A program made the translations under genes and the position numbers. From the NCBI GenBank assembly GCA_016207095.1, contig JACQQF010000059.1, positions 1-35,103 of the forward strand: a stretch of 35,103 nt of DNA. Direction: 5' to 3'. Origin of the DNA: Candidatus Methylomirabilota bacterium. GTDB lineage: Bacteria; Methylomirabilota; Methylomirabilia; Methylomirabilales; Methylomirabilaceae. The notes below the pieces were generated by a model. That model made no database searches. It saw nothing but the letters and a program-made list of their open reading frames with translations, and was not told where the DNA came from. Of the stretch, positions 4,024-28,806 are shown piece after piece. Position 1 is the stretch's first letter. Every line of letters begins with the position of its first letter.

Positions 4024-5115
4024 ATGACCGAGTGGAAGCTCCCGATGCCGAGCGAGCTGAGTGACAAGTTGCAGCAGGAGACGATCAAGAATCTCCAGCG
4101 ATTTTCGAAAGGAATGGACCTGGTCTACCGTCCCAGGGAGCCGCAGCTCGGGCAGACCCCGAAGGAGCTGATTCACAAGAAGAATAAGTCATCGCTCTAC
4201 CGCTACGGCCACGCCGCAGATCGGCGCCACGCGGTCCCGGTCTTCATGGTGCCCAACCTCGGCATCAGCCGTCCGTATATCTTTGACCTGTACCCAGGCA
4301 GCAGTTTCATCGAGTATATGGTGCAGCAAGGATTCGACTTCTACCTGCTGGACTGGGGGGTGTTTGGCGACGAAGATAACGGCCTCACCTTTGACGAGTG
4401 CGTGACTCAGATCCTGCCGGTGATGGTGAGAAAGCTGTTAAGGGCTTCTAAGGCCAGGCAGGTGACCGTGCTCGGCTATTGCATGGGAGCGCCGCTCGGC
4501 GCTTGCTACGCTGCCCTCTATCCGGAAGCGGTGAAGAACTTCGTCAACATGGCGGGGCCGATTGACTTCAAGCAGGCGGGGCTTTTCACCACCTGGCTGG
4601 ATCAGCGTCACTTCGATATCGACAAGCTGGTCGACGCATTCGGCAGCATGCCGTCGGATATGGTTCGCGTCGGGTTCAAGATGCTGAAACCTACCATGGA
4701 CTTGACGACCTTCACCAATCTCTGGTGGAATCTCTGGGACGATAGCTACGTGGAAGGTTTCCTGGCCTTGAACAAGTGGGCCAATGAGTTCACGCCCTTC
4801 CCCGGTGAGTTCTTTCGGCAGTGGGTCAAAGAGTTCTACCAGCAGAACAAACTGGTGAGAGGAGAGCTGGTTCTAGGGGGGAGGTCGGTTGATCTGTCCA
4901 ACATCCGCTGTCCGTTGTTGGTCGTGGGTGCCAAGCAGGACAATATCACCCCGCCCCAGTGTGCCAGGGCCCTTATGGACGCCACGTCAGGTTCCGACAA
5001 GGAATACGTTGAACTGCCTGGCGGTCACATCTCCCTCATAGCGGGCCGAGGCGCCAGGCGCAACGTCTGGCCCAAGGTGAGCGGCTGGATCGGCCAGCGA
5101 TCTCAGGAAGCCTGA
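4024..5115 (+). CDS. phaC: Class III poly(3-hydroxyalkanoate) synthase subunit PhaC
   Basis: PhaC polymerises hydroxyacyl-CoA into PHA at the granule surface. The 363-residue length fits class III/IV synthases (about 355), not the larger class I/II enzymes. It has an alpha/beta hydrolase fold with the catalytic cysteine C153 in GYCMGA, aspartate D306 in GAKQDNITPP and histidine H335 in PGGHISL. Other synthase landmarks are VPNLGISRPYIFDL (75-89), YLLDWG (107-112) and FTNLWWNLWDD (230-240). The lipase-like box usually reads GxCxGG; here the last glycine is alanine. The start has a good ribosome site (AAGGAGA). Its partner phaE follows after 58 bases on the same strand. Class III enzymes usually prefer short-chain monomers such as 3-hydroxybutyryl-CoA. 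Confidence 0.95.
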   Translation: MTEWKLPMPSELSDKLQQETIKNLQRFSKGMDLVYRPREPQLGQTPKELIHKKNKSSLYRYGHAADRRHAVPVFMVPNLGISRPYIFDLYPGSSFIEYMVQQGFDFYLLDWGVFGDEDNGLTFDECVTQILPVMVRKLLRASKARQVTVLGYCMGAPLGACYAALYPEAVKNFVNMAGPIDFKQAGLFTTWLDQRHFDIDKLVDAFGSMPSDMVRVGFKMLKPTMDLTTFTNLWWNLWDDSYVEGFLALNKWANEFTPFPGEFFRQWVKEFYQQNKLVRGELVLGGRSVDLSNIRCPLLVVGAKQDNITPPQCARALMDATSGSDKEYVELPGGHISLIAGRGARRNVWPKVSGWIGQRSQEA

Positions 5116-5173
5116 CACAGCGTATTTCCAGGCCTCGTCTCCGCGGCGCAGGGCCCATGAGAGGGGAATCCCC

Positions 5174-5701
5174 ATGAGCGACGGATTCATGAACCAAGAT
5201 CTCTTGTCAATGTGGAAACGCTCCATGGATCAGGGAATGGAAGCCTGGCAAAAGCTCGCCGGTCAGCAGCAGGCGCCGGACATCTCTCAGTTCTGGAGAC
5301 CGATGTTCGGGCAGAGCCTGGACGTCTGGACCCAGATCCTCAAACAAGGTATGAGCAGCCCGGACGTGCTTGCGCACTGGAAGAAGTTCCTGGACGATTC
5401 GGTCGAGGGCTGGTCCAAGGTCCTCGAGCAGGCGATGGGGACCGACGGGTTCGCCGCCGCCATGGGGAAGTTTCTCGACCAGTACATGAACACCGTCGGT
5501 CCCGTGCGCAAGAGTCTGCAATCCTCGAACGAAGAGTTCCTGCGGACCATGAATCTGCCCTCCCGCAAGCAGATTACGGACCTCGCCTCTCAGGTCGTCT
5601 CCCTGGAGGCGCGGCTGGAAGCGCTGGAGGAACGGATCGAGGATCTCGTCGATAGCATCTCTCTGCTGGAGACGTTCGTAAAGCGGGCGACGAATCCCTG
5701 A
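5174..5701 (+). CDS. phaE: Class III PHA synthase subunit PhaE, short form
   Basis: PhaE is the non-catalytic partner that forms the active PhaEC synthase. The protein has 175 residues, is rich in tryptophan and helix, and ends in the typical PhaE signature: LRTMNLPSRKQITDLASQVV followed by a coiled coil (SLEARLEALEERIEDLVDSI). Bacterial PhaE proteins of the Allochromatium type are about twice as long, so this resembles the short forms known from haloarchaea and the similar-sized PhaR subunit of class IV synthases. The ATG at 5174 has AGAGGGGA upstream; an ATG 15 bases later is possible. It follows phaC in the same operon. The assignment rests on the C-terminal motif and the position. Confidence 0.88.
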   Translation: MSDGFMNQDLLSMWKRSMDQGMEAWQKLAGQQQAPDISQFWRPMFGQSLDVWTQILKQGMSSPDVLAHWKKFLDDSVEGWSKVLEQAMGTDGFAAAMGKFLDQYMNTVGPVRKSLQSSNEEFLRTMNLPSRKQITDLASQVVSLEARLEALEERIEDLVDSISLLETFVKRATNP

Positions 5702-5752
5702 GAGGGCGCCCGTCGCCTAAAGGACCTGGTCGCACATGCCCGCGAGGGGTCG

Positions 5753-5790
5753 AAGAGGCCTCTACGTCATGAAGGTTGGCTCGGCCTCTT
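5753..5790. repeat. 8-bp inverted repeat after phaE
   Basis: AAGAGGCC at 5753-5760 and GGCCTCTT at 5783-5790 pair perfectly across a 22-base loop. No T-run follows, so it may be a processing or mRNA-stability hairpin rather than a terminator. Confidence 0.35.
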
Positions 5791-5875
5791 ACCAGGCTCA
5801 ATCTTGACTGAACACCATTTCCATGGCGCATTGGCCGATCGAGTTTGAACGGAACTGACAGAAGGGGGTGGAGCG

Positions 5876-6226
5876 ATGGAGCGCTCGGGGCAGGAGTTCG
5901 TGGACTTCGCCAAACAGGCCTTCCAGACCACACTGGACGCCGCTTCCAAGGTGCAACAGCAGACACACAAGTTGATGGAGGAGCTGATCCGGCAGGGGGC
6001 CATGGCCCAGGGAGAGGGCAAGCGTCTCCTCTCGGATTGGGTCGAGCAGTCCAAGAAGCACATGGAGGAGCTTCAGAAGGCGGCGGCGGAGGGGTATCGC
6101 AAATGGGAGGGAGAGGCGACCAAACGTCTCTCCAGCCTGGCTCCCGCGACAAAGCAGGAGGTGCAAGAACTGCGGCAGCGCGTCGATGAGCTTGCGAGAA
6201 AGGTCGAGGCGCTGGAGCGGCGCTAG
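5876..6226 (+). CDS. Phasin-like coiled-coil protein, probably granule-associated
   Basis: This 116-residue, highly charged, all-helical protein has no membrane segment and no cysteine. The N-terminal half (FVDFAKQAFQTTLDAASKVQQQTHKLMEELIRQGAMAQGEGKRLLSDWVEQSKKHMEEL) shows the phasin pattern of amphipathic helices. The C-terminal part (KQEVQELRQRVDELARKVEALERR) is a heptad coiled coil like those ending PhaF/PhaI-type granule proteins. A ribosome site (AAGGGGGTGGAG) lies just before the ATG. It lies 174 bases after phaE on the same strand and may be co-transcribed or have a weak promoter of its own. Its role is probably granule structure, or linking granules to the synthase. The family call is moderate because coiled coils are easily confused. 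Confidence 0.75.
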   Translation: MERSGQEFVDFAKQAFQTTLDAASKVQQQTHKLMEELIRQGAMAQGEGKRLLSDWVEQSKKHMEELQKAAAEGYRKWEGEATKRLSSLAPATKQEVQELRQRVDELARKVEALERR

Positions 6227-6232
6227 GCCCGC

Positions 6233-6424
6233 CTAGTGTCCCTCCAGCTATTCCCCCCTACAGCTGTGGGCAACCATGCCGGTCCAAGAAGCGAGCGTAG
6301 CAAGGCGCGGCCAACGGGGCCGCACCCACTGCGCGGGTACCCGGCGTACACTATCTGGTACGTCGCAGGGAGTGTCCCGGTGGCCAGCAACGCCGCTAGG
6401 CGAAGTTAATTGGACCGGCATTAG
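6233..6424 (-). mobile_element. MITE-like element, copy A (192 bp)
   Basis: The element is bounded by CTAG/CTAA ends with imperfect terminal inverted repeats (CTAGTGTCCCTCCAGCTATT on the left; CTAATGCCGGTCCAATTAAC on the right, read inwards). Read on the minus strand it matches copy C at 28617-28806 through most of its length, including TTCGCCTAGCGGCGTTGCTG and ACGCCGGGTACCCGCGCAG. It encodes nothing convincing. Its right end supplies the TAA stop (6423-6421) of the reductase gene, and its left end lies 6 bases after the phasin-like gene's stop. TA within CTAG is the target favoured by IS630/Tc1-mariner transposases, so a transposase acting in trans is likely. Confidence 0.8.
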
Positions 6425-7164
6425 ACGTACAAGCCTCCGTTGACGCTCAGCTGATGCCCCGTGATGTAGTCGCCATCTGAAGACACCAGGAAGACGACGG
6501 CTCCGGCCACCTCCTCCGGCCGTCCGAAGCGGCCGAGTGGGATGTGCGCGATGATCCGTTCCTTCGCTCTCTCCGGGACGGTCTCCATCATCTCGGTCTC
6601 GATGAAGCCCGGCGCCACGGCGTTGACAGTCACACCCTTTCGCGCCAGCTCTTTGGCCAAAGTCTTCGTCATGGCCATCACCCCGGCTTTCGACGCGGCA
6701 TAGTTGGCCTGACCGAAGCTCCCGATCTGGCCGATGACCGATGTGATGTTGACGATACGGCCCCACCGTTTCTCGAGCATCCCGTCAAGAAAGACTTTGG
6801 TACAGTTGAAGACACCATCCAGGTTGATGGCGAGCACCTTGCGCCAAATCTCGGGGGTCATCTTCAGGAAGGTCTTATCGCTCGTGATCCCGGCGTTGTT
6901 GACCAGGATATCCACCACCCCCAGGTTGGCCGTTACCGCATCTCTCATCGTAAGGGCGTCCGCGTGGGAGCTGACGTCGGCCTTGCAAATGAACGCGCTA
7001 CTGCCGATCTTCTCGATCAACCTGGCCGTGTCCCTGGCTGCCTCCTCACTCGACTGGTAGTTAATCGCGACCTTGGCACCCTCGTGCGCGAGCGCCAGTG
7101 CGATCACTCTGCCGATTCCCCGCGAGCCCCCGGTCACTAATGCGATCCGCCCCTTCAACCTCAT
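6421..7164 (-). CDS. phaB: Acetoacetyl-CoA/3-oxoacyl reductase (PhaB/FabG family SDR)
   Basis: This classical short-chain dehydrogenase has 247 residues. It shows the NADP(H)-binding motif TGGSRGIG (about residues 11-18), NNAG (about 90), the catalytic serine in ITSVIGQ, the YxxxK pair in NYAASKAG, and PGFIETEM. The long GxFGQxNY stretch before the active tyrosine and the C-terminus NGGLYV are features I associate with PhaB acetoacetyl-CoA reductases rather than fatty-acid FabG. Together with the PHA genes this suggests it makes (R)-3-hydroxybutyryl-CoA for PhaEC. FabG activity cannot be excluded. The ATG at 7164 is chosen because AGGAGA lies 6 bases upstream; an ATG six bases earlier touches that site. 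The stop codon TAA is formed by the end of a mobile element. Confidence 0.85.
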
Positions 7165-7705
7165 CGTCATTCTCCTGCCCCGCTGAAGCAGGGAGTTCCC
7201 CCAGACGCCGCTCGGCCGGAATCTCGGATCCTTCTGTACGAGCGCTTCGGACCTCTCAATAGGGCAAGAACGTCCGCAGCCGAACACGTCTGGGCCGCTT
7301 CGAAGCGCGGCTCGCCTTCGCTTGGGATTCTAGCATGTCTTACCGCTTTCAGGACACCTTCTTTGTCGCCCGATATCTCGGGTGGAACCCGCCCGCGCCG
7401 ATTCCTGATCCGATCCGCCTATTGGAGAGGGACCCACAAGGATAAACCTCTCTGTGGGGGGAATGTCTGATTTCCTGGACAGCCCACACGGGACGCCAGC
7501 CGGCACCGACAGACCGAAGACCGCTCGCAAATCGATACACGATATCTCGCTGTCTCGTATGCCCCGTTGTCAAGACCAGGACCGCAACGGCCTGAGTCGT
7601 GTGACCAAGAGACGTGATCTATCGTATCTATACTACAGGTAACTCACCACGCGCAATCGGCGAATGCTCCCCGGAGAGAGGGGACCTTGACGTGGAGGAA
7701 GATGA
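7165..7705. other. Divergent intergenic region
   Basis: About 540 bases separate the reductase and the secreted unknown gene. It holds a likely reductase promoter (7327-7335), a small hairpin CCCGA-TATC-TCGGG at 7369-7382, and a TATACT hexamer at 7629-7634 without a good -35 partner that may serve the plus-strand gene. Open frames inside it have no ribosome site and no recognisable product. Confidence 0.4.
7327..7335 (-). promoter_or_regulatory. Extended -10 promoter of the reductase gene
   Basis: On the minus strand TGCTAGAAT fits TG-N-TATAAT with one mismatch in the hexamer. No clear -35 element lies upstream, which is acceptable for an extended -10 promoter. The predicted leader is about 155 bases. 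Confidence 0.4.
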
Positions 7706-19981: not shown

Positions 19982-20439
19982 AGCATTTGCTTGGTTCCTC
20001 CCAGAGCGCCTCGGAAGCCGCGGATGCCTACCCCACAATCCATGATGCCACGAACGCAGGTGTCGGCCTTGGTCCACTCGCACCCCTCTGAAGATCTCGA
20101 GGGCACGCGGGATGCCGGGAATCGTGCAAGCCAGGATGCGAGGAGGCGCGCTCTTCCATCTTGACAGTAGCCGCCCGAGTGCGGCATGCTCGGAGCTCTT
20201 GAGCCGTCGTCACGGCCAGCTAGTGCCGTTCCAACTATTTCCGCCTAAATGGTAAGGCCGGGGAAAGCGATGGTTCTTAGCACGACACCTGTCGACAGTT
20301 AGCCGCAACAAGTTGGAACGGCACTAGTACCACCAAGTTAGGGCGAAATAGTTGGAGGGGCACTAGGCGCACCGGGCCAGGACACGCACATGCCTATCGC
20401 CCGATCATAGCCGAAACGTTCCACTGAGAAGGGGTGAGC
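19982..20439. other. Intergenic region before glnS, partly mobile-element DNA
   Basis: About 460 bases lie between the RluD-type gene and glnS. Positions 20220-20366 are composite element B. In 19982-20219 I see no gene: minus-strand frames exist but lack ribosome sites and known motifs. No consensus promoter for glnS was found; its ribosome site is clear. Confidence 0.4.
20220..20366. mobile_element. MITE-like element, copy B (nested or composite)
   Basis: A 108-bp unit at 20220-20327 has perfect 17-bp terminal inverted repeats (CTAGTGCCGTTCCAACT and its complement). Another outward end of the same type, GGGCGAAATAGTTGGAGGGGCACTAG in pieces at 20341-20366, follows 13 bases later, so the locus has one left end and two right ends. 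The interior is unrelated to copies A and C; only the ends are shared. This suggests one element landed in or beside another, or that a transposase mobilises different inserts with the same ends. No coding sequence is present. Confidence 0.75.
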
Positions 20440-27218: not shown

Positions 27219-27247
27219 TCATTAGCATAGAAAGGGGGCGTTGTCAA
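27219..27247 (-). promoter_or_regulatory. Promoter of the HNH-uvrB operon
   Basis: On the minus strand TTGACA (27247-27242) is followed after 17 bases by TAATGA (27224-27219), with TG one base before it. The predicted leader is about 45 bases. No LexA-type box was recognised. Confidence 0.55.
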
Positions 27248-27334
27248 CGCAAAGGATGATGCCCTGGAAATGGGGAGCTGCGCGGCGCGTGCAGTGGTCC
27301 GACCCCCGTAATATTGAGGGACGCAAGAAAACCG

Positions 27335-27363
27335 TTGACAAGATAGCGTGCCCCTGGATAGCC
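27335..27363 (+). promoter_or_regulatory. Possible promoter of the aminotransferase gene
   Basis: A perfect TTGACA lies at 27335-27340. The -10 is weak (GATAGC or ATAGCC near 27357-27363, 16-17 bases away, with TG before it). It lies 80 bases before the GTG start. Confidence 0.4.
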
Positions 27364-27383
27364 TGCCTCTGCGTCAAGAGACG

Positions 27384-27409
27384 GTTCATGGTTCAGCGTT
27401 CATGGTTCA
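27384..27409 (+). repeat. Short direct repeat in the aminotransferase leader
   Basis: GTTCATGGTTCA occurs at 27384-27395 and again at 27398-27409, separated by GC. It lies between the promoter and the ribosome site, so it would be transcribed as leader RNA. Confidence 0.6.
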
Positions 27410-27444
27410 CAGGGAGGGGGAACACAGAACGAAGGAGGCATCAC

Positions 27445-28620
27445 GTGGAGACGTCGTACAGAAATCTGAACCTGCCGGTCCGAACGCTGTTGGGGCCCGG
27501 GCCGAGCAATGTGCATCCGCGGGTCTACCGCGCGATGACGACGCCGGTCCTCGGGCACATGGACCCAAAGTTCCTTGAGGTGATGGACGAGATGATGGAA
27601 TTGCTCCGATTCGTCTTCCAGACGCGGAACACCATCACCCTCGCCATCCCTGGCACCGGGAGCGCCGGGATGGAGGCCGCGCTGGTCAACCTCATTGAGC
27701 CGGGGGACGGCGTCCTCGTGGGGGTCAATGGCTACTTCGGCGAGCGCCTCTCCGCCATGGCCTCTCGCCACGGAGCGGAGGTCCGTCGCGTGGAGGCCCC
27801 ATGGGGCCAGATCGTCGAACCCGACCAGATCGAGCGGGCGCTCGCAGCGCGACGGGCGAAGCTGGTTGCCGTGGTCCATGCTGAGACCTCCACAGGCGTC
27901 CTGCAGCCCATCAAGCCGATCGCCGACGCTTGCCATCGCCACGGCGCCCTTCTGCTGGTCGATGCCGTCACCTCCCTGGGCGGGTCGCCTGTTCCGGCGG
28001 ACGAGTGGGGCGCAGACGTCTGTTTTAGCTGTACACAGAAGGGGTTAAGCGCTCCTCCTGGGCTGGCGCCGATCACCGTAAGCGACCGCGCGGTAGCGGT
28101 GACCAGCTCCCGACGTTCACCGGTCCAAAGCTGGTATCTGGACCTCAGTCTCATCACCAAGTACTGGGGCAGTGACCGCGTGTACCACCACACCGCTCCT
28201 ATCACCATGCTGTATGCCCTCCGCGAGGCGCTCTGCTTGGTCCACGAAGAAGGGCTTGAGCCACGATGGCGCCGCCACCAGGCGTTGAGCAATGCTCTGA
28301 TTGCCGGCCTGAACGCCCTCGGACTCCCGATCCTGGCCCCCGAGTCACATCGAGCGCCAACGCTGACCGTCGCCCGCATCCCGGAGGGTGTCAAGGACAT
28401 CGCGGTGCGCACGACGTTGCTCTCGGAACACAACCTGGAGATCGGCGGCGGGTTGGGGGCCCTGAAAGGTCAGGTGTGGCGGATCGGGTTAATGGGTGAA
28501 TCGTGCACCCAGGCGAACGTCCTATTGGTCCTCTCGGCGCTGGAAAGCGCCCTCGGCAGGCAGGGATGGCGGCGCGAGAAGGGAGCCGGCGTAATGGCCG
28601 CGCTGGAGGCGCTAGCCTAG
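27445..28620 (+). CDS. Serine- or alanine-glyoxylate aminotransferase (class V)
   Basis: This PLP enzyme moves an amino group from serine or alanine to glyoxylate, giving glycine. The 391 residues carry LLGPGPSNVHPRV at the N-terminus, PGTGSAGMEAALVNL, HAETSTGVLQPI, VDAVTSLGG, the PLP lysine K199 in CTQKGLSAPPGLA, and YHHTAPITMLYALREAL. GTG 27445 is chosen because GAAGGAGG lies 6 bases upstream and because the frame before it lacks family similarity. In C1-metabolising bacteria such an enzyme serves the serine cycle; elsewhere it serves photorespiration-like glyoxylate removal. Which one applies is not visible here. The stop TAG is the end of mobile element copy C. Confidence 0.92.
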   Translation: METSYRNLNLPVRTLLGPGPSNVHPRVYRAMTTPVLGHMDPKFLEVMDEMMELLRFVFQTRNTITLAIPGTGSAGMEAALVNLIEPGDGVLVGVNGYFGERLSAMASRHGAEVRRVEAPWGQIVEPDQIERALAARRAKLVAVVHAETSTGVLQPIKPIADACHRHGALLLVDAVTSLGGSPVPADEWGADVCFSCTQKGLSAPPGLAPITVSDRAVAVTSSRRSPVQSWYLDLSLITKYWGSDRVYHHTAPITMLYALREALCLVHEEGLEPRWRRHQALSNALIAGLNALGLPILAPESHRAPTLTVARIPEGVKDIAVRTTLLSEHNLEIGGGLGALKGQVWRIGLMGESCTQANVLLVLSALESALGRQGWRREKGAGVMAALEALA

Positions 28621-28806
28621 TGCCGTTCCAACTAACTTCGCCTAGCGGCGTTGCTGGCCCCCAGGGCGCTCCCTGCGACGTACCACCGTATGTACGCCGG
28701 GTACCCGCGCAGTGGGTGCGGCCCTGGGGTCCGCGCCTTGCTATGCTCGTTTCTTGGCCCGGCAGGGGCCCTCCAGGATAGGCCGAAATAGTTGGAAGGG
28801 CCCTAG
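28617..28806 (+). mobile_element. MITE-like element, copy C (190 bp)
   Basis: The element is bounded by CTAG at both ends. The left end reads CTAGTGCCGTTCCAACTAAC and the right end, read inwards, CTAGGGCCCTTCCAACTATT. The interior matches copy A in opposite orientation. The left end provides the TAG stop (28618-28620) of the aminotransferase, and the right end lies 22 bases from the stop of the convergent Ppx/GppA gene. It has no transposase. CTAG ends with an internal TA fit insertion by an IS630/Tc1-mariner enzyme. Confidence 0.8.

Follow-up and report, generated by a model that had tools for sequence, protein, structure and literature searches.

How does the end of a mobile element come to serve as the stop codon of a gene, and does the gene pay for it? 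The question is raised by a 35,103-nucleotide stretch from a Candidatus Methylomirabilota bacterium (contig JACQQF010000059.1; hereinafter the window), in which the first-pass annotation placed the stop codon of a PhaB-type reductase gene within the end of a repeat. The annotation attributed the repeat to Tc1/mariner/IS630 transposition and proposed that stop codons are safe landing sites for it. We compared the window with the remainder of the genome from which it comes (2.90 Mb, 103 contigs; hereinafter the source genome) and with related repeats elsewhere.

Repeat ends that supply stop codons

The end pattern CTA[G/A]TGCCGTTCCAA is present at three sites in the window (Table 1), namely, at copy A, at copy C and at copy B together with the remnant adjoining it (20220-20366). 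The reductase stop does lie in the end of copy A, which on the minus strand starts with CTAATGCCGGTCCAATTA, and the TAA codon at 6423..6421 terminates the reductase frame. Copy C, as annotated, repeats the arrangement at an aminotransferase gene, and in both cases, the stop is formed by the left end, the two copies belonging to one ~190-bp family and being 82% identical over 190 positions. The region 4024-7287 of the window is a PHA-type cluster encoding an alpha/beta hydrolase with a weak PhaC_N match, a PHA_synth_III_E-like protein (just under the cut-off), a phasin and the SDR reductase.

Table 1. Repeats, remnants and adjoining genes in the window
Feature	Position	Strand	Remarks
Copy A	6233..6424	-	~190-bp family, left end at 6424
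Reductase TAA stop	6421..6423	-	copy A supplies it with its left end (CTAATGCC); reads C-TAA
SDR (FabG/PhaB-type) reductase ORF	6421..7287	-	relatives stop at the equivalent position
Copy B	20220..20327	+	108-bp element with hairpin-forming ends; not at any called stop
GIY-YIG C-terminal tail remnant in copy B (GRGKRWFLARHLSTVSRNKLERH)	20256..20324	+	followed by the element-end TAG; no element matches in the reversed-query control
190-family right-end remnant	20328..20366	+	adjoins copy B; 84% identical to the right end of copy C
Class-V aminotransferase ORF	27241..28620	+	terminated by the TAG in copy C's left end
Copy C	28617..28806	+	~190-bp family, starts with CTAGTGCC
Aminotransferase TAG stop	28618..28620	+	made by the left end of copy C, reads C-TAG

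Across the whole source genome, the end pattern was matched 363 times with up to 3 mismatches and 164 times with up to one, compared to 107 and 0 matches, respectively, for the reversed pattern. The comparison of ends at in-frame stops with other CTAG sites, which the first-pass annotation had called for, covered 61 stretches of the source genome and the window (1,125,377 bp, ~39% of the genome), all of the stretches having been picked for holding ends. The ends were defined by an 18-mer with up to 3 mismatches, and genes were called by a simple frame-specific Markov model built for this analysis. An excess was found: 53 of the 108 end clusters are located at a stop codon, compared to 52 stop, 259 intergenic and 335 coding sites among the control CTAGs of the same DNA, after exclusion of 241 CTAGs located within or close to elements and 26 close to edges (odds ratio (OR) 4.8, Fisher p = 1.4e-10). 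The excess persists when the control is limited to CTAGs that have a facing stop no more than 100 bp away (OR 4.3). Called genes contain only 2 of the 250 individual ends, as against the 335 coding control sites, that is, the elements are scarce within genes.

Counted by end, 54 of the 250 coincide exactly with a called stop codon (offset 0). Within 60 bp, the nearest stops in the same direction otherwise fall 5-46 bp before the end and none falls at +1 to +60. Truncation in a random frame would in most cases place the gene end within the element, and these coincidences therefore do not represent truncations. Host proteins give the same answer. Among relatives of the reductase, which were at most 68% identical, the stop codon, be it TGA, TAG or TAA, lies within two residues of a common position at all 19 loci, and the corresponding sites in genomes G002 (L068) and G011 (L067) are not CTAG; among these relatives, no empty site from a close strain was found. 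In comparisons with NCBIfam models, eight of ten other host proteins match to within 11 positions of the profile end, including RpoD (630/631), HslU (441/441), DnaA (437/437), ProC (263/263), YidC (551/562), LL-diaminopimelate aminotransferase (384/387), glucan phosphorylase (599/600) and thiolase (387/389); a CysA-like protein stops 15 positions short (347/362), and ParB is uninformative. Thus, the proposal that insertion leaves the protein unchanged is supported, and neither the reductase relatives nor the profiles indicate that the genes originally ended further downstream, an outcome that the annotation would have counted against its reading. Truncation of host genes in the source genome is accordingly rejected. 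Among the stop codons made by repeat ends are those of rpoD, dnaA and hslU.

Regeneration of the CTAG target

The copies are found at many unrelated genes with only CTAG in common, and the earlier suggestion that this tetranucleotide is the target is supported. The annotation had further reasoned that an element whose first base is G or A would restore TAG or TAA upon landing in a stop codon. In 29 simple pairs of the source genome, one end lies at a stop; the outermost base at their other end is invariably a purine, G in 27 pairs and A in two, so that the rebuilt site always reads as a stop; this agrees with the reasoning, as a weak test, because the target is nearly always CTAG. In G039, a genome of the same class, CTAG flanks both sides in 45 of 47 simple pairs, and tandem copies have one CTAG in common. 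Regeneration is also supported by a filled/empty pair in the source genome. At locus L082, an element of the 108-bp type occupies an internal CTAG (positions 26-29 of copy C) of a 190-bp copy, and its flanks, when rejoined at one CTAG, yield an uninterrupted sequence, 84% identical to copy C over 80 bases without a gap; the right-hand CTAG now reads CAAG. Such exact duplication is compatible with either a 2-bp TA or a 4-bp CTAG target.

The 108-bp and ~190-bp copies of the source genome, as well as 90-bp copies in G039, display the traits of MITEs, that is, short and uniform length, inverted repeats, many copies and no transposase. Of the 44 90-bp copies, the 23 in consensus orientation are 97-100% identical to the consensus. 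As single-stranded DNA, the 108-bp and 90-bp copies fold far better than shuffled sequences (z = -6.7 and -6.8, respectively; L119, -4.2), as implied by their inverted repeats. In G042, a Gemmatimonadetes MAG, four elements (L270:7443-7553, L272:9806-9912, L281:9953-10020 and L285:9910-10016) carry the same variant base in both inverted repeats. Matched variants of this kind were considered as a sign of selection on the hairpin and rejected, being above permutations in G042 only and not in the source genome, G039 or G041, a Nitrospirae MAG. At L173:9845-9962 in G039 and in clusters of the source genome, for instance, L128:13116-13191, element ends in the same direction recur every 25 bp, as if the end unit alone had multiplied. 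Four composites of 281-282 bp (L108:9645-9925, L122:9245-9526, L136:7950-8230 and L138:16265-16545) share an identical six-end pattern, possibly because one composite moved as a single unit.

Full-length relatives encoding a GIY-YIG nuclease

Full-length elements with these ends were identified in four genomes, namely, G039, G011 (L218; Candidatus Methylomirabilis oxygeniifera, from the genus of the window), Nitrospirae NS_7 (L219) and Gemmatimonadetes AG17 (L220), and their only gene is a GIY-YIG ORF. The unit, 320-377 bp in length, consists of CTAG, a ~13-bp inverted repeat (TGCCGTTCCAACT), an ORF for ~95 aa, the inverted repeat and CTAG. In the 320-bp version from G039, the ORF starts with GTG after GGAGG, and its last codons, AAC AAG TTG GAA CGG CAC TAG (NKLERH and stop), are the far inverted repeat. 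In L220 and the G039 copies, the far CTAG doubles as the stop codon of the nuclease ORF. An internal stop is present in L217, one of the G039 copies. The L219 ORF stops short of the far CTAG, and the L218 frame continues past the far end, where CTAG has changed to CTTG. The element ORFs of G039 and G011 match PF01541 above the cut-off. Over 78 codons, the four nuclease proteins show pN of 0.22-0.27 versus pS of 0.70-0.84, indicating that the protein is under purifying selection. The predicted structure of the nuclease is poor (mean pLDDT 60.5), and the UPF0213 proteins 1zg2 and 1ywl match the element protein over about residues 2-69 (E = 1.3e-6 and 3.9e-4, respectively).

Among 22 loci with related GIY-YIG ORFs recovered in a genome scan, only three (L218, L219 and L220) have the ends described here. 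The other 19 (L221-L239) come mainly from candidate-phyla and Omnitrophota MAGs; at 13 of these, the ORF overlaps or lies within 15 bp of a tRNA gene, at two more it is within 75 bp, and next to several of them are CGCCTNAGGCG-like palindromes and a repeat of part of the tRNA. A second group of GIY-YIG elements seems to be represented here, one that restores a tRNA in place of a stop codon.

A full-length GIY-YIG element was not found in the source genome, where PF01541 has two matches, one being a 605-aa frame and the other a gene that lacks these ends. The C-terminal tail of the nuclease is nevertheless recognizable in 26 of the 108 end clusters, including copy B, and ends at the element-end TAG (tblastn, E<=5); of 11 matches with reversed tail queries, none is in an element. 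The 108-bp and 90-bp copies are thus linked to the GIY-YIG parent, with which both families have their ends in common, the 108-bp copies also keeping the tail. The 190-bp family, to which copies A and C belong, is a putative descendant of the GIY-YIG element, linked to it only by similar ends and the same target, and tblastn detected no GIY-YIG remnant in this family.

In 15 full-length copies, the left end was readable (12 in G039, plus L218, L219 and L220). It coincides with a host stop codon in eight, lies in or beside another element in three and elsewhere in four. In the copies with the left end on a host stop, the nuclease gene is in sense with the host gene, and our guess from these small numbers is that it could be expressed by read-through. 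No right end on a stop was seen where the flank is known (the L160, L219 and L220 copies). Among all stop-forming ends in G039, 14 are of the right type and 15 of the left type, three of the latter in full-length copies.

These elements bear directly on the proposed affiliation with Tc1/mariner/IS630. This label could not be upheld for the ends under study, considering that PF13358 (DDE_3), the sole transposase family searched, has no match in the source genome, G039, G020, G023 or G029, and that the full-length elements carry GIY-YIG instead. Matches to PF13358 are present in G002, G011 and G006, and two of the corresponding ORFs, both in the genus of the window, lie between CTAG ends (G011 L182 1369-2530 and G002 L181 451-1619), but their inverted repeats, CTAGTGTGCTGACAC and CTAGTGTTTAGTTA, agree with CTAGTGCCGTTCCAAC in the first six bases and diverge thereafter; the former has no match in the stretches of the source genome. 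On these grounds, an IS630 origin was rejected, although we keep it as a rival in the following form: the repeats are IS630/Tc1-type MITEs moved by an unseen DDE transposase with a TA/CTAG target, the GIY-YIG ORF being a passenger. The CTAG target with its regeneration fits this alternative, as do the CTAG-bounded PF13358 ORFs, the ends of which likewise start with CTAGTG or CTAGTA, so that an unseen DDE enzyme is possible and the odds of a GIY-YIG mover are slightly lowered. With PF13358 unmatched in the five genomes listed above, and with GIY-YIG as the only gene in the full-length elements with these ends in four genomes, we nonetheless regard the alternative as unlikely. At L182:1344-2530, the IS630-type element starts at a CTAG 26 bases into the left-end stretch of a 190-family copy, and this left end (1344) is itself where an open frame of 350 aa (295-1347) terminates, a further coincidence with a stop.

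Stop codons, selection and comparison with known systems

The claim that stop codons are favoured held only in part. In the 190-bp family, the excess is strong: 28 of 48 copies are at a stop (OR 7). By contrast, the 108-bp family, with 18 stop-forming ends among 147 (76 BLAST matches), is near background (18 of ~75 copies versus the 52:259 control; OR 1.6, p = 0.10), and G039 is likewise close to what the available CTAGs would provide. In the latter genome, 29 of 52 clusters are at stops, the control CTAGs being divided into 37 stop, 55 intergenic and 41 coding sites (29:23 versus 37:55, p = 0.05), and within 100 bp of a facing stop, the counts are 29:7 versus 37:11 (p = 0.46). CTAG availability accounts for much of the stop fraction in G039. 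Contrary to the source genome, G039 has three called gene ends 19-25 bp inside elements. The counts for G042 are 14 of 24 clusters at stops (control 21:31, p = 0.11), and those for G041 are 10 of 14 (control 3:10, p = 0.016), the latter obtained with a gene model trained jointly with the DNA of the source genome (coding 80%), as a poorer gene call (coding 41%) put 4 of 14 clusters at stops. Pooled without the source genome, G039, G042 and G041 show a modest excess over available CTAG stops (OR 2.2, p = 0.004); taken singly, G039 is borderline and G042 falls short of significance. Coincidence with stops thus occurs in all four genomes covered by the counts; the same ends are also present in G002, G011, G020, G023, G029 and others. 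An exact 18-mer search of viral contigs returned no matches, and neither did a protein search of plasmids.

The simplest alternative is that there is no preference for stops at all, the elements landing at CTAG, insertions in coding sequence being purged and the stop fraction mirroring the share of stops among the non-coding CTAGs. G039, G042 and the 108-bp family all conform to this expectation, an alternative that we take seriously. The overall excess in the source genome, which survives restriction to gene ends, the 190-bp family and the pooled result from the other three genomes depart from it, and on balance we consider this alternative appreciably less probable than the reading preferred below.

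The copies of the 190-bp family at stops display a marked asymmetry: the left end forms the stop in 24 and the right end in five, one copy being at stops with both (sign test, p = 0.0005). The right part is unalignable in 22 of the 48 copies, while left ends on the stop side are intact, which suggests that one end has been preserved through selection on the stop codon; survival of the ends retained as stop codons may act on the excess in this family. The concentration at gene ends and the left/right bias could also be expected if the family were kept there for a use, such as transcription termination or protection of mRNA 3' ends. However, the window has no Rfam match, the first 140 nt of copy C, folded as DNA, are only slightly better than shuffles (z = -2.0), and selection on the stop codon would preserve the stop-side ends in any case; hence, such a use appears improbable.

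In our view, the repeats are probably non-autonomous relatives of the GIY-YIG element that insert at CTAG and regenerate it, insertions within genes being purged and those in C-TAG stops being silent and kept. The CTAG target and its exact regeneration, with CTAG left on either side of the element, are borne out by the sequences. The GIY-YIG protein is the candidate mover, perhaps cutting CTAG with a TA overhang, which would yield the C-TA-G...C-TA-G pattern; GIY-YIG enzymes can leave 2-nt 3' overhangs. The same enzyme may move the 190-bp family, including copies A and C. Enrichment at stops would then follow from the purging of genic insertions and the silence of those in C-TAG stops, and ends in use as stop codons would subsequently be retained through selection on the gene. 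Neither the 24:5 bias of the 190-bp family nor the three G039 gene ends inside elements are explained by this model.

A bolder case, to which we give somewhat less than even chances, is that of a minimal transposable element, the sole enzyme of which, a ~95-aa GIY-YIG nuclease, cuts and rejoins DNA at CTAG. Such an element would thrive on TAG stops: its arrival would restore the stop codon of the host, its far end would supply a stop for the element itself as well as a further site for landing, and hairpin-ended derivatives would arise in large numbers. In other phyla, related GIY-YIG genes may likewise regenerate their target, at tRNA genes. If this is right, one small GIY-YIG nuclease would be all that is needed to disperse DNA over many unlinked sites, which, to our knowledge, is a role known only for other enzyme classes, and the stops of rpoD, dnaA and hslU would offer a clean case of selfish DNA avoiding harm by re-creating the signal it interrupts. 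The full-length relatives point to a little-known kind of mobile DNA that is able to land on a gene end with the protein unchanged.

Among the matches listed in a search of titles and abstract openings in the open literature, we recognized no description of such an element. Miniature repeats that form stop codons are already known; it is the bolder case that would make the element categorically new. REP sequences and their RAYT enzymes also pair a single small nuclease with numerous non-autonomous palindromic repeats located between genes, but RAYT is a Y1 enzyme, whereas the nuclease described here is of the GIY-YIG type and the ends are CTAG. The UPF0213 proteins 1zg2 and 1ywl are similar in sequence but lack the additional tail that the inverted repeat encodes in the element protein; we know of no UPF0213 protein of this pair described as part of a mobile element.

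Homing endonuclease genes copy themselves into the cognate uninterrupted allele, their own mobile DNA not being recognized (PMC1564403). GIY-YIG homing genes resemble the present elements in that a nuclease belongs to a selfish element and the function of the host gene stays intact. Unlike these, the present elements are located at many unlinked CTAG sites in unrelated genes, with no restriction to a cognate allele, have inverted-repeat ends of their own and give rise to non-autonomous derivatives. The nearest precedent recognized for the formation of stop codons is the pneumococcal BOX element, copies of which supply the stop codons of 36 annotated genes with no sign that these are truncated (PMC3049150, PMC2229807). 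RUP has a TA target and is tied to IS630-Spn1, and BOX is tied to an IS through similarity of the ends (PMC3049150, PMC2229807). Like the present repeats, BOX and RUP are small and abundant, the former forming stop codons and the latter targeting TA; the passages cited link each to an IS and report neither a GIY-YIG gene nor an exact CTAG rule (PMC3049150, PMC2229807).
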